DNA of 39,180 nt. Source: Candidatus Fibrimonadaceae bacterium. GTDB taxonomy: Bacteria > Fibrobacterota > Fibrobacteria > Fibrobacterales > Fibrobacteraceae. Positions 10,495 through 22,032 of the stretch are shown piece by piece. Numbering within the stretch: the first letter of the stretch is position 1; each line of letters opens with the position of its first letter. Under the pieces are notes generated by a model that saw only the letters and a program-made list of their open reading frames with translations, had not been told where the DNA came from and ran no database searches. The stretch lies in the NCBI GenBank assembly GCA_031281155.1, contig JAITFT010000166.1, positions 1 to 39,180 of the forward strand. The letters run 5' to 3'. Both the position numbers and the translations under genes were made by a program.

Positions 10495-10611
10495 ATGCTT
10501 GAATTGAGAAAGAAAAATATAACATTTATGACTATTGAGCATAAAGGACATTTATTAGAAAATGTTGTAGATAAAGAAATTCAACCAAAATTCGGAGGAA
10601 TCAAAATATGA
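10495..10611 (+). CDS. Small ORF coupled to the substrate-binding protein gene
   Basis: This is a 38-residue ORF with a good ribosome-binding site (GAGGAG, six bases before ATG 10495). Its stop overlaps the next gene's ATG as ATGA, and its last codons contain the GGAGGA that serves that gene. I recognise no domain. It could be a leader peptide that couples translation of the transporter operon, or the tail of a lost gene. The charged sequence, with no membrane segment, argues against a small membrane protein. Confidence 0.4.
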   Translation: MLELRKKNITFMTIEHKGHLLENVVDKEIQPKFGGIKI

Positions 10612-11594
10612 AAAATAATTTTTTCATTAAGCTAGGAGCGATTGCGGCAATTGCAATCGGAATGTTTTTTGTCTCTTGCACAAAAAAGGGCGATCTTGAA
10701 ACCGTAAGGGTAGCTCAATTTAATGAGTTTTTCCTTTATATGCCATTATATTTGGCAGATGCAAAAGGATTTTTTGCAGAAGAAGGGCTGAGGATTGAGG
10801 TTGTCAATACAGGCGGAGACGATAAAACCCTTGCTGCTGTAATGGGCGGTTCAGCCATGTTTGGAATTGCCGATCCAACTTTTGCGGCAATAGCCAAAGA
10901 ACGTGGCGGAGACGGAAAGGTGATTGCGAGTATTGTAAATGGAGTTCCGTTTTGGGGCGTTACCAGAAATCATGAAATCCCGGAAATTACAGACCCTGCC
11001 CAGCTAAGCGGTTACAGTGTCGCGACTTTTCCAGAGCCGTCCACAGCTTTTCTTTTGCAGCGCGATATGTTTGAAAGAGCAGGATTAAGGCCAAATATTA
11101 GGCAAGGAGCTTTTGGTACATTGTGGACTATGGTAGAAGCCGGGCAAGCCGATATTGCTTTGGAGTTGGAGCCTAACGTTTCAATTGCTGCCAATCAAGG
11201 CGGTAAAGTATTGTATTCGCTTGCGGAAGTTTATGGAGATTTTGCAATAACAGGTGTAACCGTGAGGGAAAGAACAACGAAAAAGAGACCTGAAATAGTG
11301 CAGCGTTTTGTAAATGCTTTGCAAAAATCCGCACAATTTGCTCATGCATATCCTGATAGCGTGGCGCTATATGCCGAAAAGCTTTTTCCAAATATTGATA
11401 GGACTGTTAGCGCAAATGCTATCAATCGAGTAATCAGCACTAATACTTTGCCTAAGGATGTTATCATTTCAGAGGAAGCGTGGGAGAAGGCTATACAACA
11501 GAGGCATGGAGTTGGTGAGATTAGGTCATTGGAAACAGCAAGAAGCGTATTGGATATGTCTTTTGCGAAGAAAGCGGTTGAGGGAAGGAAGTAA
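10608..11594 (+). CDS. NitT/TauT-type ABC transporter substrate-binding lipoprotein
   Basis: This 328-residue protein is the periplasmic binding component of an ABC importer in the NMT1/SsuA/TauA family. Residues 1-24 form a lipoprotein signal ending in FVSC, so Cys24 should be lipidated and the protein membrane-anchored. The mature start (VRVAQFNEFFLYMPLYLADAKGFFAEEGL) is the classic family pattern, followed by GIADPTFAAI and a long second lobe. It opens a run of SBP-like genes leading to one ATPase and one permease. Its last 200 residues are highly similar to the C-terminal half of the next protein. The substrate cannot be read from sequence; sulfonates, nitrate-like ions, pyrimidines and aromatic acids are all known in the family. 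Confidence 0.88.
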   Translation: MKNNFFIKLGAIAAIAIGMFFVSCTKKGDLETVRVAQFNEFFLYMPLYLADAKGFFAEEGLRIEVVNTGGDDKTLAAVMGGSAMFGIADPTFAAIAKERGGDGKVIASIVNGVPFWGVTRNHEIPEITDPAQLSGYSVATFPEPSTAFLLQRDMFERAGLRPNIRQGAFGTLWTMVEAGQADIALELEPNVSIAANQGGKVLYSLAEVYGDFAITGVTVRERTTKKRPEIVQRFVNALQKSAQFAHAYPDSVALYAEKLFPNIDRTVSANAINRVISTNTLPKDVIISEEAWEKAIQQRHGVGEIRSLETARSVLDMSFAKKAVEGRK

Positions 11595-11595
11595 A

Positions 11596-13791
11596 ATGGC
11601 ACTTGGGAATAAAGATGTCTTAAAAATAGACATACATATGTCGACAAATTCATTTTTATATCTTCCGATATATATAGCTGAAGATTTAAAAATATTTGAA
11701 ACGGTGTTGGAGCCAGCATTGGAACATTATGAAGAATTGAAAGATCGTAAAATTGAGTTGAGATTTTTTGGGCGTAAGGAAAATATTGGAGATGAAAACT
11801 CAATAATAAATATGTTAAAAGCTAACGATGCTAAAAAATCCAACGTCATTGCAATTGCAATAGGTTCGCCTATAGCATTTTTGAATTCTGCAAAAATTAA
11901 AAAAAAGAATAAAGATAAAGTTAAAATTGTTGGTGCTCTTATCAATAAACCAACTTTTTGGGCAGTTTCAAAAGAATTAATAACAGAAAAAGAAGATCTT
12001 AGTATAAGTGATTTTAAAAAACATTTTAAACAAGTGATTTGCCAAAACGAGGACTTTATAACAGGTTATTATTTAGGTCAAAGAATTAGAAGTAAAGCCA
12101 AATATGACGATAGTAATTTGTGTAAAGTTTCTTTTGGAGACGAACTTGATAAATTAACAGACGGGAATTCAGTTGCCGTTACAGCTGATATAGCAAAAAT
12201 GACAGAAAAAATTGCTAAGAATACTGGGTATATTTGCCATCGTTTTTCTGAATCGCAAGGAGAAATTTTAACAACAGGAATTATTACATCTAAAATATGT
12301 TGTGAAAAATTTCCTGAAATTATAGAAAAAATAATTGAATCAATCCAGATTTCTATTGCGATACTTTATTCATCTCAGAAAAAAGCTATAGAAAGTTGTG
12401 AAAAAATAGCTAAAACCTTATATGGAACAATGACAAGCTCTGTTATAGAAAAAATAATAAAAAGAATGAATGAAGAGCGATTTTATCCTAGCATTGATCT
12501 AAGTATTTCGGAGGGAAGCTGGAATAATGCATCTAAGGCTTTGGTAGAAATACAACGGGCTGTTGTTAAAAAGGACACTTATACAAAATATGTTGACAAT
12601 AGTTTTGTTTTGAAAGCTATTGCGAAACGAACAGGTATTGATTTGAGTACAACTAAGGATAGATGTAAATATAACACTAATAAAAATGAATGTAAGTGCG
12701 TTCATATTAGAGAACTTAGAGAGCGTAATAATTGTGAGGGAATCAAATGTCGTTATCAAAAAGAGTATAAATCTGCGGAATTGCTAATTAAATTTTGTGA
12801 TTTTTTTGAAAAAAAAGCAAAACATTTGCTTATCATACTGCTTGCAATTTTTGCTATTATTTTCATTATCTTGCTGAAAAAAAATGATAATCAAATTGAG
12901 GCAGTGAAAGTGGCTATATTTGGTGATTTTTCTCATTATGTACTGTTATATTTGGCAAATGAAAAAGGTTTTTTTGCTACGGAGAAATTGAAAATTGAAA
13001 TTATTGATACTGACAATGAAAAGAAGGTTTTCGCTGCTGTAATTAATGACCCTGTTACCTTTGGCATTACCGATCCAACTTTTGTTGCAATGGCTGCGGA
13101 GGAAGGTTATGAAGGAAAGGTAATAGCGAGTATTGCGAAAAGAATTCCGCTTTGGGGTATTGCTAAAAAACAAACGCTTTCTGAAGTTACTGATCCAAGT
13201 CAGTTAAGCGGTTACAGCGTAGCGACTTTCCCTTCTCCATCCATTGCGTATATACTGCAATATGATATATTTAAGAAAGTAGGCTTAGAACCAAATATCA
13301 AACAAGGGGCAGTAGGTACGTTGTGGTCTATGGTGGAAGCAGGACATGCTGACATCGCACTGGAGTTAGAACCTAATGTTTCGAGAGCACTCATGCAAGG
13401 TGGCAAAATGCTATACTCGCTTGAGAATTATGGTGATATCGCAATAACAGGCGTCGTTGTAAGTAAAAAGATGACAGAAACGAGTCCTGTATTAGTGCAG
13501 CGTTTTGTAAATGCTTTACAGAAATCAGCACAGTGGGCACTTGCACATCAAGATAGTGTAGTATATTATACTCGCAAACATTTTTCTGACATAGATACGA
13601 CAATTAATGCAAGTGCGATTAATAGAATAATTAGCGCCAAAATGTTACCTGAAAATGTTATGATTTCAGAAGAGGCGTGGGAGAAAGCGATAAAATTAAG
13701 GTATGAAGCTGGTGACATTAAATCGTTGGAAACAGCAAAAAAAGTATTGGATATGTCCTTTGCCAAAAAAGCAATCAAAGGAGGGAAATAA
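11596..13791 (+). CDS. Two-sided protein: cytosolic SBP-like domain, TM helix, periplasmic SBP
   Basis: This 731-residue protein has no signal peptide. Residues 1-400 form an SBP-like domain (STNSFLYLPIYIAEDLKIFE, AIAIGSPIAFLNS, TFWAVSK, YICHRFSESQGEILTTGI). A single hydrophobic helix lies at about 409-427. Residues 436-731 are an NMT1-type SBP close to the preceding lipoprotein (KVAIFGDFSHYVLLYLANEKGFF, GITDPTFVAMA). With the N-terminus in the cytosol, the helix would act as a signal anchor and place the second SBP in the periplasm. ATG 11596 is preceded by GGGAAGGA and follows the previous stop by one base. The first domain recurs alone in the next two genes. I know no standard transporter subunit with this layout; a substrate sensor or regulator of the importer is inferred. 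Confidence 0.8.
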   Translation: MALGNKDVLKIDIHMSTNSFLYLPIYIAEDLKIFETVLEPALEHYEELKDRKIELRFFGRKENIGDENSIINMLKANDAKKSNVIAIAIGSPIAFLNSAKIKKKNKDKVKIVGALINKPTFWAVSKELITEKEDLSISDFKKHFKQVICQNEDFITGYYLGQRIRSKAKYDDSNLCKVSFGDELDKLTDGNSVAVTADIAKMTEKIAKNTGYICHRFSESQGEILTTGIITSKICCEKFPEIIEKIIESIQISIAILYSSQKKAIESCEKIAKTLYGTMTSSVIEKIIKRMNEERFYPSIDLSISEGSWNNASKALVEIQRAVVKKDTYTKYVDNSFVLKAIAKRTGIDLSTTKDRCKYNTNKNECKCVHIRELRERNNCEGIKCRYQKEYKSAELLIKFCDFFEKKAKHLLIILLAIFAIIFIILLKKNDNQIEAVKVAIFGDFSHYVLLYLANEKGFFATEKLKIEIIDTDNEKKVFAAVINDPVTFGITDPTFVAMAAEEGYEGKVIASIAKRIPLWGIAKKQTLSEVTDPSQLSGYSVATFPSPSIAYILQYDIFKKVGLEPNIKQGAVGTLWSMVEAGHADIALELEPNVSRALMQGGKMLYSLENYGDIAITGVVVSKKMTETSPVLVQRFVNALQKSAQWALAHQDSVVYYTRKHFSDIDTTINASAINRIISAKMLPENVMISEEAWEKAIKLRYEAGDIKSLETAKKVLDMSFAKKAIKGGK

Positions 13792-13792
13792 A

Positions 13793-15256
13793 ATGAAATC
13801 TAATAATGTTAACCTTTTAAATATTGATGTATATACATCAACGAATTCACTTTTATATTTACCTGTCTATATAGCCAAAGATTTAGAAATATTAGAAACT
13901 GTATTGAAGCCAGCATTAGAGCATTACGATGAATTAAAAAACCGTGAAATTAATGTAAATTTCCACTCGCCTAAAATTGGCGAAGAAGGAGATGAAAATG
14001 CAATAATAAAAATGCTAGAAGCTAACAAAAAATGCCCTAATGATGTGACTATAGCGATTACGATAGGTTCTCCTGTCGCTTTTTTAAACTCAAATAAAAT
14101 CAATAAGGAAGATAAAGATGATATTAAGGTGATTGGTGCTGTTATTAATAAAGCAACTTTTTGGGCGATTTCAAAAACTCCCATCTTAGGAACAGAAGTT
14201 AAAAACATTAGTTTAGTTGAATTGGGGAAAAATTTCAACAAGGTGATTTATCCTAACGAAAATTTTATAACGGGTCATTATTTAGGTGGAAAATTCAAAG
14301 AGGAAGCCAAAGTAAAAGAAGCATGCGACAAAGCTTCTTTTGGAGAAGAGCTTACGGAATTAAGAAAAAATAACAAATCAATTGCTATTACGGCAGATAT
14401 CCCCAAAATAGCGACTGGAGAGGCTAATGAGTCTGAATATATTTGTTATCGTTTTTCTGAAGCAGAAGGTGATTTTTTAACAACGGGTATTATTACTTCT
14501 AAAAAATGTTGTGAAAAATATCCCCAAGTTATAGAAAAAATAATAGAATCAATTCAAAATTCTATTGAAATACTTTACTCATCAAAAAAAAAAGCTATAG
14601 AAAGTTGCGTATTGTTATCAAATACTTTGTGTAAGGAGCAATTTGTGATGCCGCAAGATGGCGATTTGTCAATAGAATTTGATGAAAGCTCGCTTGTTAT
14701 GAAAAAAATTGTTAATAAAATGTACAAGGAGCGATTTTATCCCAGTATAGACTTAAGTGTTTCGGAAGGAAGTTGGAATAACGCAGTTGAGGCATTGAAA
14801 AAAATACAAGATTTTAGCAGTAATAATGCAGACAAGGAAGTTACTTATGCAAAATATGTTGACAATAGTTTCGTTTTAAGATCTCTTACTAAGCGCTCAG
14901 GTATTGATTTGAGTACATCTAAGGATAAGTGCAAATATGACACTGGCAATTGTATTCGTATTGTAAAGCATATTGGAGAGCTAAAAGGAACAGATAAATG
15001 CATAAGCGGTTGGTGCTGTGAACATCAAGAGAAATATTTAGAAAGAATAAAATTAATTAGAATAAATGAGTTTTTGAGAAAACATATAAAACTCTGGATA
15101 TTACTTTTATCTATTGTTTCGTTTGTTGTTTTAATTTCTAGCAAAGGACTTGGTGAGGCTATTACAGGTGTAGTTGCTATTTTGGGGATTGCCGCAAAAG
15201 ATAAGATAAAAGGATTTCTAGAGGCAATTAAGAATGGGAGTCAAAATGAATCGTAA
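13793..15256 (+). CDS. Membrane-tethered cytosolic SBP-like protein
   Basis: This 487-residue protein is a paralogue of the N-terminal half of the preceding one: STNSLLYLPVYIAKDLEILE at the start, AITIGSPVAFLNS, YICYRFSEAEGDFLTTGI, RFYPSIDLSVSEGSWNNA and YAKYVDNSFVL. It lacks a signal peptide and ends with one or two hydrophobic segments (about 430-470), so the SBP-like domain should be cytosolic and held at the membrane. A short Cys-containing stretch (CKYDTGNC, then CISGWCC) lies before the helices. ATG 13793 follows GGAGGG and starts one base after the previous stop. The periplasmic SBP half is absent. Function unknown; a role in substrate sensing for the importer is inferred from context. 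Confidence 0.75.
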   Translation: MKSNNVNLLNIDVYTSTNSLLYLPVYIAKDLEILETVLKPALEHYDELKNREINVNFHSPKIGEEGDENAIIKMLEANKKCPNDVTIAITIGSPVAFLNSNKINKEDKDDIKVIGAVINKATFWAISKTPILGTEVKNISLVELGKNFNKVIYPNENFITGHYLGGKFKEEAKVKEACDKASFGEELTELRKNNKSIAITADIPKIATGEANESEYICYRFSEAEGDFLTTGIITSKKCCEKYPQVIEKIIESIQNSIEILYSSKKKAIESCVLLSNTLCKEQFVMPQDGDLSIEFDESSLVMKKIVNKMYKERFYPSIDLSVSEGSWNNAVEALKKIQDFSSNNADKEVTYAKYVDNSFVLRSLTKRSGIDLSTSKDKCKYDTGNCIRIVKHIGELKGTDKCISGWCCEHQEKYLERIKLIRINEFLRKHIKLWILLLSIVSFVVLISSKGLGEAITGVVAILGIAAKDKIKGFLEAIKNGSQNES

Positions 15257-15404
15257 CAACTTAATTAATGTCCATAATATAAATTTTTCTTGTATCTTCA
15301 ATGGAAATAAAATTATTTTAGAAGAAGCGTTAGAAAAAATTATAAACCTAAGGTTTGGGATAAGCAAAATTATGTCATTGAAAATGACAAAGTATGCAAG
15401 GTGA
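15246..15404 (+). pseudogene. Remnant of a second ABC ATPase gene
   Basis: A 52-codon frame starts inside the end of the previous gene, just as the intact ATPase gene downstream does. Its start (NLINVHNINFS, then FSC-like and NKII segments) aligns with the ATPase N-terminus (NIINIHNLNFS, FSC, NKII), with roughly nine residues missing in between. The similarity stops before the Walker A motif. It is best read as the stump of a duplicated ATPase gene whose body was deleted when the operon rearranged. Its end overlaps the ribosome-binding site of the next gene. Confidence 0.65.
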
Positions 15405-15411
15405 TACCAGC

Positions 15412-16815
15412 ATGAATATTAAGATATATAGAGCAGCAGATTCGTTTTTATATCTTCCAGCATATATTGCTGAAGATTTGGAAATACTTCAAACAGAATT
15501 AGCGAAAATAGAAAAATATCGCACTACACAATTTAATGTAGAATTTGTTAACCTTGATGCAAATAACAGTACAGGAGATGAAAAGGCAATAGAAGAAATG
15601 TTAAAAAATAGTAGTGATAATACTATTGCAATAGCAATAGGCTCTCCCGTTGCCTTTTTAAACCCTAATATGAGTGAGAATGTGAAAAAAAATATTGTAG
15701 TTGTTGGTGCTATTATTGATAAATTAACCTTTTGGGCAGTTAACAATCATGGTAATACACAAAAATATGATAGTATAGAAGAGATGGGAGGCAATGGTTT
15801 TTCGAAAGTGGTTTATCCCGAAGAAAAGTTCGTAACAGGTTATTATTTGGGCAAAAAAATTCGAAATGAGATCAATATTGATGAATTCCATAATGTTAAT
15901 TTTGGTGATGAGATTAAAATAATAAAAGCACATGGCTCAAAAGAAAATAAGTCAATTGCCATTACTGCCAATATAGCAACATTGGCAAAAGAGACAAAAG
16001 ACATTTGCTCAAAAGAAACAGAGAGAAAGTTTTGTCCAAAAGAAACAGAGGGCATCTCAATGATTCCTAATGCCAGTTCGGAATCTAGCATTGGGTTATA
16101 TATTAATCATTATTTTTCTAAATCACAAGGAGAATTTTTAACAACTGGCATTGTTACCTCAAGAAATTCTTGCAAAAACTTTCCTGAGGTTATAGAAAAA
16201 ATCATTGAGTCAATTCAAAAGTCTATTTCTATACTTTATTCATCCGATAAAACAGCTAGAAAAATTTGTGCTGTAATAGCAAAAGCTAAGTTTGGCGATA
16301 AATTTTGTGAAGTAACTGGTGATGATTGTCAAACGATAAAAAAAATCATACAAATGATGCATGATGAGAAATTTTATCCTGGAGATTTAAATGTTTCAAA
16401 AAAAGCTTGGGATAAGGCTGTAATAGCATTAGCGAAAACAAAAGATTGGAAAGAAAATAAGAAAAATGAAAAAAATGTAAAAGAAATCTTGTCAAAATCT
16501 TTTTATAATTTTGTTGATAATAAATTTGTCCTTGAGTCAGAAAGGCATATTGCAGAACAATTTGGTATTGATCCAAATACTTTCAAAAGTATAAGTATTA
16601 TTAAATACAAATTCAAAAAGATTTTCGAGCTAATATTAGGAATGCTAAAAAAACATCTAACAGTATTTTTATGTATGCTTTTTACTTTAATTATCTTTGT
16701 TTTGCTATTTATATATCAACATACAGGTAAAATCAGCGAGAAGGATGTTATATTTCTGTTCTTAGGTCCTATTTTAGGCACTATTGCTGGAAAATTAGTT
16801 GGTGGAAAGGTATGA
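15412..16815 (+). CDS. Membrane-tethered cytosolic SBP-like protein
   Basis: This 467-residue protein is the third copy of the cytosolic SBP-like domain: SFLYLPAYIAEDLEILQ, AIAIGSPVAFLNP, TFWAVN, VTGYYLGKKI, HYFSKSQGEFLTTGIVTS and FVDNKFVL. It has no signal peptide and ends in two predicted helices (about 418-437 and 447-463), so the domain should sit in the cytosol as a tail-anchored protein. I chose ATG 15412 over the in-frame ATG at 15394 because AAGGTGA then serves as its ribosome-binding site and paralogue similarity begins there. Its stop overlaps the ATPase start as ATGA, which implies coupled synthesis. It carries a Lys/Glu/Cys-rich insert near residues 195-220 that the other copies lack. 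Confidence 0.75.
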   Translation: MNIKIYRAADSFLYLPAYIAEDLEILQTELAKIEKYRTTQFNVEFVNLDANNSTGDEKAIEEMLKNSSDNTIAIAIGSPVAFLNPNMSENVKKNIVVVGAIIDKLTFWAVNNHGNTQKYDSIEEMGGNGFSKVVYPEEKFVTGYYLGKKIRNEINIDEFHNVNFGDEIKIIKAHGSKENKSIAITANIATLAKETKDICSKETERKFCPKETEGISMIPNASSESSIGLYINHYFSKSQGEFLTTGIVTSRNSCKNFPEVIEKIIESIQKSISILYSSDKTARKICAVIAKAKFGDKFCEVTGDDCQTIKKIIQMMHDEKFYPGDLNVSKKAWDKAVIALAKTKDWKENKKNEKNVKEILSKSFYNFVDNKFVLESERHIAEQFGIDPNTFKSISIIKYKFKKIFELILGMLKKHLTVFLCMLFTLIIFVLLFIYQHTGKISEKDVIFLFLGPILGTIAGKLVGGKV

Positions 16816-17543
16816 GTAGTAATATTATCAACATCCACAACCTAAACTTCTCATTCCCCAATAACCCCATATTTATGGATTTTTCCTGTACCTTTGACAA
16901 AAATAAAATCATTACTATTATCGGCAATAGCGGTTGCGGAAAATCTACGCTGTTAAACTTAATTTCTAGATTGCTTGAGCCTGCCTCTGGCAACATCACA
17001 GTTAACGGTTCATTCATTTTTTTAACACAACATCTTACACTATTACCCTACCATACCGCCTACGAAAATGCTTTATTAGCATGTGAACTTCGAAAAGCTA
17101 AAACGAAACAAAAAGAGACAGAAGTTGATGATTTATTTGAGCTGTTCAAGCTGTTTGAAGACTCAAAAACTAAATTTCCGCAAGAATTATCGGGCGGCAT
17201 GCAACAGCGCATAGGGTTGATCCAGACTCTATCAGTTGACGCCCAGATATATTTATTAGACGAACCGCTAAAGGGCGTAGATAGAGTTACAGGATTGATT
17301 ATTCAAGATTATATTTGGCGTAAATTCAAGGCGAACCATATTACAGGGCTTATAGTTACTCACGATATAGAGCAAGCGGTGCTGCTGAGCGACAAAATTC
17401 TTTTCTTATCAGCTAATAATCCAGCAGAAGAATTTGTTTTTGACAAAGATTTTGTTTCTCTGCCGCCAGATAAACGCTTAAAAACTGATTGCTACAAAAA
17501 ATATATGCTGCATATCATAGAAAAGCTTGGAGAATTGAAATGA
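16812..17543 (+). CDS. ABC transporter ATPase (SsuB/TauB type)
   Basis: This 243-residue nucleotide-binding subunit energises the importer. All motifs are intact: Walker A GNSGCGKST (38-46), Q-loop Gln73, signature LSGGM (126-130), Walker B IYLLDE (146-151) and switch His184 in VTHD. The family is that of SsuB, TauB and NrtD. It overlaps the upstream SBP-like gene and the downstream permease gene by four bases each (ATGA), so all three are likely made in step. It has no C-terminal extension, unlike NrtC/CmpC, where an SBP-like regulatory domain is fused to the ATPase; here comparable domains are encoded by separate genes. Confidence 0.92.
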   Translation: MSSNIINIHNLNFSFPNNPIFMDFSCTFDKNKIITIIGNSGCGKSTLLNLISRLLEPASGNITVNGSFIFLTQHLTLLPYHTAYENALLACELRKAKTKQKETEVDDLFELFKLFEDSKTKFPQELSGGMQQRIGLIQTLSVDAQIYLLDEPLKGVDRVTGLIIQDYIWRKFKANHITGLIVTHDIEQAVLLSDKILFLSANNPAEEFVFDKDFVSLPPDKRLKTDCYKKYMLHIIEKLGELK

Positions 17544-18304
17544 AAAAAATAAAAAATTTACTATATCAGATTATTCCCTTGGTTGCTTTTTTAAGTCTTT
17601 GGGAACTTTTTACGATGAACTCTCCAAGAAATACATTTCTGTTTTCTCGACCGTCAAAAGTAATAGCCAAGCTTATTGAAAAGATTTCCGATGGCGAATT
17701 AATACACCATTTCGGTGTTACCGCTTTTGAAGCATTTGCTGGTTTAGTGCTCGGTGTTTTAGTAGGTAGCATAATAGGTTTTTTGCTGTTATATTTTCCA
17801 AAGGTATCAAAAATATCAAAATATTACGTTATCGCATTAAGTTCTATTCCGATATTTGCTATAGCTCCCATGATGATCATTTGGTTTGGCATAGGCATTA
17901 AAATGAAAGTTGCAATGGCTTTTTTTTCTACCGTTTTTGTTGCTATTTTTCAAGCCTATCAAGGCGGACAAAATATTAACAAGCGAGATGCCGAATTTTT
18001 CAAATTAAATGGCGCATCTGACAAACAACGCTTTTGGAAACTGACATTTCCATCGTCTATAGATTGGTTGATACAATCATTAAAATTGAATTCTGGCTTG
18101 GCTGTTTTAGGGGCTTTTATTGGCGAGTTCATTGCTTCTGATAAAGGACTTGGTTTCATAATTATAAGAGCAAGCGGACTATACGATGTATCCTATGTTT
18201 TGGCGGCAACAATTTGCATTATTATTTTAACATTGATTTTTAACTTAGGCGCAACTTTTATAGAGAAAAATAAGTTAAAAATTATTAGGAGAATTTCGGT
18301 TTGA
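17540..18304 (+). CDS. ABC transporter permease (SsuC/TauC type)
   Basis: This 254-residue inner-membrane protein has about six hydrophobic segments and the cytoplasmic coupling loop typical of binding-protein-dependent permeases (FFKLNGASDKQRFWKLTFPS, near residues 150-170). It belongs to the SsuC/TauC/NrtB family and would work as a homodimer with the ATPase. ATG 17540 overlaps the ATPase stop. It is the last intact gene of the operon and the only permease, so the several SBP-type proteins upstream probably all serve one channel. Confidence 0.9.
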   Translation: MKKIKNLLYQIIPLVAFLSLWELFTMNSPRNTFLFSRPSKVIAKLIEKISDGELIHHFGVTAFEAFAGLVLGVLVGSIIGFLLLYFPKVSKISKYYVIALSSIPIFAIAPMMIIWFGIGIKMKVAMAFFSTVFVAIFQAYQGGQNINKRDAEFFKLNGASDKQRFWKLTFPSSIDWLIQSLKLNSGLAVLGAFIGEFIASDKGLGFIIIRASGLYDVSYVLAATICIIILTLIFNLGATFIEKNKLKIIRRISV

Positions 18305-21264: not shown

Positions 21265-22032
21265 TTGGAAAAGCATTTGATTGAAGCGAAAAAAAGCGAG
21301 AAAACAAAAAAGCTTTACCTTCATGTTTATAAAAATTTTGTGGAGCATTTTAAAAACGATATAAATAAAATTACAGAAAAAGATATTGAAAAGTATTTTG
21401 AATTGAAAAAGTTCAATACAAGAAATAAAAACTTGACAATAAGCGCCTTGAAATATTTATTTAAGAACCTGCTGGGAAAAAATTTAAGCTTGGCTAGGCC
21501 GTGCAATAAATTGCAAAAAAATGAAGTGGAAATTTTAACAAAAGACGAGGTATTAAAAATTTTGAATACAGAAAAGAGTATTCATAACAAACTTTTATTT
21601 ATGCTTGTTTATTCCGGTTTTAAAATAAAAAACGCAATAAACTTTAAAAAAGAACAATTAGATCCGCTTAAAATTCCAGCTAAAATTTCAACTCTTATAG
21701 AACAGAATTCATACTTAAAGCACTCGGAATTTATCTTAAGCTTTTCAGCCAAAAAAGCCGAGCAAATCTTTCAAAAAGCGCTTAAAAATGCTCAAATAGA
21801 TAAAAAAGCCAAGCTAAAAAGCCTAAAAATATCTTCTATTGTACACTTGCTGGAAATGGGCGTTTCGCAAGAATTTATTAAAATGCTGCACGGTTTGTCG
21901 AGTAATTTTTCAATAAAACAATATGAATCTTTCGTTAATCACAAAAGCATAATCTTAAACCCTCTGGATAATATTTTTTACTCGCAATGCTTTTCAATGC
22001 GCTGTAAATTTCTATATTCCTCCCATGCGTGA
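21265..22032 (+). CDS. Catalytically degenerate tyrosine-recombinase-like protein
   Basis: This 255-residue protein has the two-domain layout of XerC/D-type recombinases: a helical core-binding domain (about 1-88) and a catalytic-like domain starting LTKDEVLKIL and ending NPLDNIF. At the catalytic positions the usual GLR reads GFK, the HxLRH box reads KSLKI, and the GH box reads HG; only the Tyr (IKQYESF, about residue 219) remains. Strand exchange is therefore unlikely; it could be a decaying gene or a DNA-binding derivative. The only in-frame start here is a TTG; an ATG would be gained if the C10 tract lost one base. It is very Lys- and AT-rich. Its 3' end overlaps the next gene's start. 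Confidence 0.65.
   Translation: MEKHLIEAKKSEKTKKLYLHVYKNFVEHFKNDINKITEKDIEKYFELKKFNTRNKNLTISALKYLFKNLLGKNLSLARPCNKLQKNEVEILTKDEVLKILNTEKSIHNKLLFMLVYSGFKIKNAINFKKEQLDPLKIPAKISTLIEQNSYLKHSEFILSFSAKKAEQIFQKALKNAQIDKKAKLKSLKISSIVHLLEMGVSQEFIKMLHGLSSNFSIKQYESFVNHKSIILNPLDNIFYSQCFSMRCKFLYSSHA
22013..22018 (+). promoter_or_regulatory. -10 box directly before a lipoprotein gene
   Basis: AAATTTC followed by TATATT, then six bases and ATG 22025. Transcription should begin on the start codon. This promoter and the first codons closely resemble those of the ATPase gene at 24934. Confidence 0.5.

Follow-up and report, generated by a model that had tools for sequence, protein, structure and literature searches.

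A compact ABC-importer operon in Candidatus Fibrimonadaceae encodes, beside an ordinary importer, three membrane proteins whose N-terminal domains (NTD1 to NTD3) are diverged homologues of the substrate-binding protein (SBP) and are predicted to be held on the cytosolic side of the membrane. It is the SBP that marks an ABC importer as a machine working from the outside in, and regulation by an SBP-like domain in the cytosol has been described mainly for NrtC and CmpC, where the mechanism is still unsettled. If the reading proposed below is true, the operon would represent a second, independently built case, with control vested in a separate anchored protein, and recruitment of the binding fold to the inside would be a recurrent route by which an importer receives feedback on substrate level.

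The operon occupies positions 10608-18304 of the window, by which we mean the whole 39,180-nucleotide stretch of DNA that was analyzed. Its six genes all point the same way and overlap or are separated by only a few bases, except for one gap of 155 bases. The features of the operon are as follows.

10608-11594, + strand: SBP1, a canonical NMT1/SsuA-family lipoprotein SBP of 328 aa.
11596-13791, + strand: P0002, 731 aa, consisting of NTD1, a Cys-rich linker, a transmembrane (TM) helix, and SBP2.
11596-12675, + strand: NTD1 of P0002 (approximately residues 1-347), a divergent SBP-type domain without a signal peptide, predicted to be cytosolic.
Approximately residues 409-427 of P0002, + strand: the TM helix, from TM prediction.
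12895-13791, + strand: SBP2 of P0002, a canonical NMT1 domain without a lipobox, predicted to be periplasmic and tethered by the TM helix.
13793-15256, + strand: P0003, 487 aa, consisting of NTD2, a Cys-rich linker, a TM helix (432-450), and a short amphipathic tail.
15246-15401, + strand: a relic open reading frame (ORF) of 52 codons, in which a decayed ATPase N-terminus is joined to a decayed SBP C-terminus.
15412-16815, + strand: P0004, 467 aa, consisting of NTD3, a TM helix, and a second hydrophobic segment (probable hairpin).
16812-17543, + strand: the ATPase, 243 aa, with Walker A (GNSGCGKST), signature (LSGGM), and Walker B (LLDEP) motifs.
17540-18304, + strand: the permease, a BPD_transp_1 protein similar to SaoP, SsuC, and TauC.

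The listed ORFs of P0002 and P0003 open within the preceding genes (at 11458 and 13703, respectively), and their likely starts are at 11596 and 13793. P0004 probably begins at 15412 rather than at the ORF opening at 15394; its TM helix spans residues 422-440 when numbered on the 473-aa ORF that begins at the latter position.

The ordinary importer genes were assigned with Pfam models. SBP1 matched NMT1 (PF09084) with an E-value of 3.1e-23 and starts with a lipoprotein signal peptide, read from the sequence as ending in FVSC (the lipobox) and cut before a T, as expected for the one normal lipoprotein SBP proposed in a first-pass annotation that had been made from the DNA letters alone. The ATPase matched ABC_tran (4.4e-26) and the permease matched BPD_transp_1 (1.7e-30); the best NCBIfam model for the ATPase, ntrCD, remained under its cut-off. 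Because an exported NMT1-family SBP, an ABC_tran ATPase, and a BPD_transp_1 permease are encoded in one operon, the system was categorized as an NMT1/SsuA-type importer. Assignment as an SAO-system importer was rejected, as the NCBIfam scores fell under the cut-offs for SaoP (99.7 of 295 bits), SaoA (123.6 of 360 bits), and SaoX (20.5 of 300 bits). SBP2 also matched NMT1 (3.9e-20) and is 61% identical to SBP1; genome-wide, these two are the only NMT1 proteins over the cut-off. Altogether, five SBP-type domains are found in four proteins, in addition to the relic of a further SBP. The first-pass annotation had listed an ATPase, a permease, and four SBP-like proteins, and all six genes lie where it placed them, but it had omitted the second, canonical SBP of P0002. 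The operon contains no enzyme gene, and no riboswitch was found.

By sequence comparison, the NTDs are full-length, diverged homologues of SBPs. They match no Pfam family and are 46-59% identical to each other, and all three carry the motifs noticed previously (FLYLP-YIA-DL, GSPVAFLN, ATFWA/TFWA, and FSE-G-LTTGI). Within this one genome, tblastn connected an NTD to the operon's own SBP with an E-value of 8e-9. An NTD profile scored SBP1 at 1.5e-8 and SBP2 at 7.5e-6, and hhalign aligned the NTDs with the operon's SBPs at an E-value of 5e-12 across 280 columns. As a control, shuffled SBPs were scored against the NTD profile and reached at most 12.2 bits, versus 39.5 bits for SBP1. Among sequences from outside the window, SBPs of Acuticoccus and Paraburkholderia were matched by BLASTP at up to 48-49 bits. 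NTDs and SBPs align over the full length, beginning at the first strand and reaching the VDNSF motif at the C-terminus; the NTDs contain insertions. A small tree separates the three NTDs, as one clade, from the two SBPs, as a second.

The AlphaFold2 model of the NTD was poor (mean pLDDT 48) and is not independent evidence, as its input alignment included both SBPs; the model of full-length P0002 (mean pLDDT 39) was set aside. A Foldseek search with the pLDDT-48 model returned 33 matches at E ≤0.001, all of them SBP-type folds with TM-scores of about 0.4, and the matches to this low-confidence model were exclusively of the NMT1, Thi5, SsuA, TauA, and PqqT types. When NTD sequences alone were compared with solved structures, low-scoring artificial alpha-repeat proteins were obtained and dismissed as chance matches; with the SBPs added to the query, structure 2x7p was matched at 4e-5. 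The nearest solved folds, Thi5/NMT1 and Candida CA3427 (PDB 2x7p), are unexported proteins of the PBP fold, as is predicted for the NTDs, but they are soluble, eukaryotic, and located outside transporter operons.

The NTDs are under purifying selection (NG86 dN/dS of about 0.30-0.49, with dS near saturation). Invariant positions are more frequent in the loops that correspond to the SBP pocket (22/40) than in the remainder of the domain (86/254, p 0.013), the list of pocket loops being the analyst's own choice, guided by what is known of the family. The NTDs lack the E-P motif found in the ligand loop of SBPs, suggesting that they may not bind the ligand of the SBPs. With pocket loops that are better kept but an E-P motif that is gone, the NTDs likely bind a ligand, perhaps one other than that of the SBPs.

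The topology of the three proteins was assessed from signal peptides, cysteines, and charges. Neither the signal peptide nor the lipobox of an exported SBP is present in the NTD proteins, and no N-terminal hydrophobic segment was found in them, including when translation was begun at upstream in-frame starts. In all three, a TM helix lies C-terminal to the NTD. The segments before this helix contain 12 (P0002), 12 (P0003), and 6 (P0004) cysteines, whereas mature SBP1 and SBP2 contain 0, apart from the lipobox Cys of SBP1. Lys and Arg residues are more numerous on the N-terminal side of the helix than on the other side in P0003 (6 versus 1) and P0004 (4 versus 2), which favors an inside N-terminus for these two; the flanking charges of P0002 are ambiguous (4 versus 3). 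Considering the lack of a signal peptide, the cysteine content, and the C-terminal TM helix, the best reading is that the NTDs are cytosolic and membrane-anchored. The earlier proposal of three divergent, cytosolic SBP-like domains held by a helix therefore stands as to homology, missing signal peptide, and TM helix, and its cytosolic placement draws on the cysteines and flanking charges. Neither of the two results named beforehand as contradicting that proposal, an unrelated fold or evidence of NTD export, appeared.

SBP2 follows the TM helix of P0002, so an N-terminus on the inside would put SBP2 in the periplasm, where SBPs work. If this topology is right, P0002 would expose one SBP-type domain on each side of the membrane. 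Tethering of an SBP through a TM segment is also seen in importers of the GlnPQ/OpuA type, but in those systems every SBP is fused to the permease and points outward, whereas the tether in P0002 also holds an SBP-like domain predicted to face inward. The linkers between NTD and TM helix in P0002 (window 12640-12790) and P0003 (14905-15040) have spaced cysteines in common (C-x6/7-C ... C-x4-C), a pattern that could bind metal and is absent in P0004.

The relic ORF (MNRNNLINVHNINFSCIFNGNKIILEEALEKIINLRFGISKIMSLKMTKYAR), which lies in the single large gap of the operon, offers a readable history of growth and fusion in such a system. By BLASTP, its first half resembles residues 3-34 of the ATPase (P0005) with an 11-codon deletion, and its second half resembles residues 286-312 of SBP1 (P0001). 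None of 2000 shuffled sequences reached either score, and of the six frames only that of the relic scores well. The ATPase-like start of the relic overlaps the end of P0003, as the true ATPase overlaps the end of P0004. Furthermore, the junctions between SBP1 and NTD1 (11592-11598) and between SBP2 and NTD2 (13789-13795) are alike, with a TAA stop, an A, and then ATG. The relic and the matching junctions indicate that SBP, ATPase, and permease were accompanied by the NTD, and the simplest account is that an ancestral SBP-NTD-ATPase-permease cassette existed, with the NTD a member before multiplication. The NTD protein would have arisen by SBP duplication, followed in one copy by loss of the signal peptide and acquisition of a membrane anchor at the C-terminus. 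The cassette would then have multiplied in tandem to at least three units and eroded. One deletion between units may have created NTD1-TM-SBP2 by joining NTD1 in frame with the neighboring unit's SBP, and another may have removed an ATPase-permease-SBP stretch, leaving the ATPase'-'SBP scar; one ATPase and one permease would have been retained. Since SBP1 and SBP2 split, SBP2 has changed about seven times more than SBP1 (branch lengths of 0.51 versus 0.07 in one small tree). Conserved residues of a pocket loop have been lost in SBP2, with FLYMP replaced by SHYVL.

We tentatively propose, at somewhat below an even chance, that the NTDs sense substrate inside the cell and control the importer. 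Placed next to the ATPases on the inner face of the membrane, the binding fold would most likely recognize the substrate after import, or a closely related derivative of it, and gate the transporter through feedback inhibition or activation, much like the SBP-like tail of NrtC in the case of nitrate. The first-pass annotation had arrived at a similar interpretation, which as a whole is partly supported. A broader version, which we consider doubtful, is that the importer reads substrate on both faces with one fold. The anchored cytosolic subunit would then be a regular part of the cassette, and the P0002 chain, linking an inner and an outer SBP, would let transport depend on how much substrate is inside relative to outside.

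The comparison with NrtC and CmpC, also made in the first-pass annotation, holds as a functional analogy. A regulatory role has been reported for their SBP-like domain (PMC6603209, PMC11349869), which is homologous to a periplasmic SBP and lies on the cytosolic side of the importer, as is predicted for the NTDs. In NrtC, whose regulatory domain contains a putative nitrate site, truncation of that domain abolishes the ammonium sensitivity of nitrate uptake (PMC6603209); the role of the CmpC domain is still not fully understood (PMC11349869). In contrast to NrtC and CmpC, in which the domain is fused C-terminally to the ATPase, the operon has separate anchored proteins, in three copies and from the NMT1/SsuA branch, and a plain ATPase of 243 aa with no SBP-like domain fused to it. 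With a separate anchored protein and a different SBP branch, the resemblance is one of function and not of membership, and the design is likely independent of NrtC/CmpC, though it would work alike. In the open-licence papers searched, no SBP-like subunit that is cytosolic, anchored, and separate was described.

Four other explanations were weighed against internal sensing. The first, which we judge unlikely, is that the NTDs act as cytosolic acceptors or relays that catch substrate leaving the permease and block its efflux or pass it to enzymes, while playing no part in control of the transporter. Anchored proteins encoded within a transporter operon and with partly kept pocket loops would suit such a task, and three copies could raise the local binding capacity, but the operon lacks an enzyme gene. 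ABC import is also already near-irreversible, so a sink would add little.

Transmembrane signaling, in which SBP2 of P0002 senses outside substrate and relays this through NTD1 to the ATPase with P0003 and P0004 as partners, appears less likely still. The presence of NTD1, TM helix, and SBP2 in a single chain is consistent with it, and the faster divergence and altered pocket loop of SBP2 fit a changed role. However, a deletion between tandem units also explains the fusion, which may thus be an accident, no output domain is present, and two of the three NTD proteins lack an outer SBP. If the operon is instead an eroding tandem array, the NTDs could be by-products without a present role. The relic and the NTD1-SBP2 fusion do show erosion, and the locus is accessory and confined to one genome, but three intact NTD frames of more than 450 codons each, dN/dS values well under 1, and motifs kept in all three make mere decay improbable. 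That the NTDs are enzymes working on the imported compound is very improbable: Thi5, MqnA, and DszB are enzymes of the PBP fold, Thi5 and other such enzymes are among the Foldseek matches, and the NTDs are cysteine-rich and predicted cytosolic, but neither a cysteine motif like that of Thi5 nor catalytic residues were identified in them, and their sequences are nearer to the SBP lineage than to Thi5.

So far, a single genome is known to carry the system. No NTD relatives were identified in the 167 other genomes of the 168 from Fibrobacterota or in a search of 200 relatives. A pattern scan of 85,000 genomes and searches of viral contigs, plasmids, and phages also returned none, but pattern scans catch only sequences that share short conserved peptides, so the absence outside the phylum is weak. 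SBP1 had no orthologues at an E-value of 1e-10 in 60 relatives, and permease matches in relatives were only generic (22-25% identity). The same gene order, which the first-pass annotation had suggested looking for elsewhere in Fibrobacterota, was thus not encountered, either in the 167 other genomes or at the fliD-fliS flank of 8 congeners. This fliD-fliS-6.4 kb flank is syntenic in 8/8 congeners examined, none of which has the operon next to it. Contamination was rejected: the synteny with 8/8 congeners covers fliD-fliS plus one further upstream gene, so the contig belongs to the genus. A flanking gene encodes a Fib_succ_major domain, one of the grounds for assigning the contig to Fibrobacterota.

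The stretch from 6.5 to 26 kb of the window resembles an accessory region adjoining the conserved fliD-fliS genes. Downstream of the operon, the ORF at 21265-22029 is similar to a tyrosine recombinase (phage-type integrase) but looks damaged and has a weak match to the catalytic domain. The G+C content of the NTD genes is 29-31%, versus 41% for the window. The integrase-like ORF and this low G+C content make acquisition of the operon from elsewhere plausible.

Relatives of the importer are found on plasmids. An NMT1/SsuA importer locus on an Acuticoccus plasmid (L024) has an SBP with 34% identity, an ATPase, and a permease in otherwise the same order, but in the annotated plasmid loci inspected no NTD gene lies between SBP and ATPase; one further locus, L034, carries no annotation. 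Four plasmid relatives of SBP1 (L024, L032, L033, and L035) adjoin acetamidase/formamidase or amidase genes, and most of the annotated plasmid relatives inspected are near amidase or formamidase genes. These neighbors hint at a nitrogen-containing substrate for the SBP1 branch.
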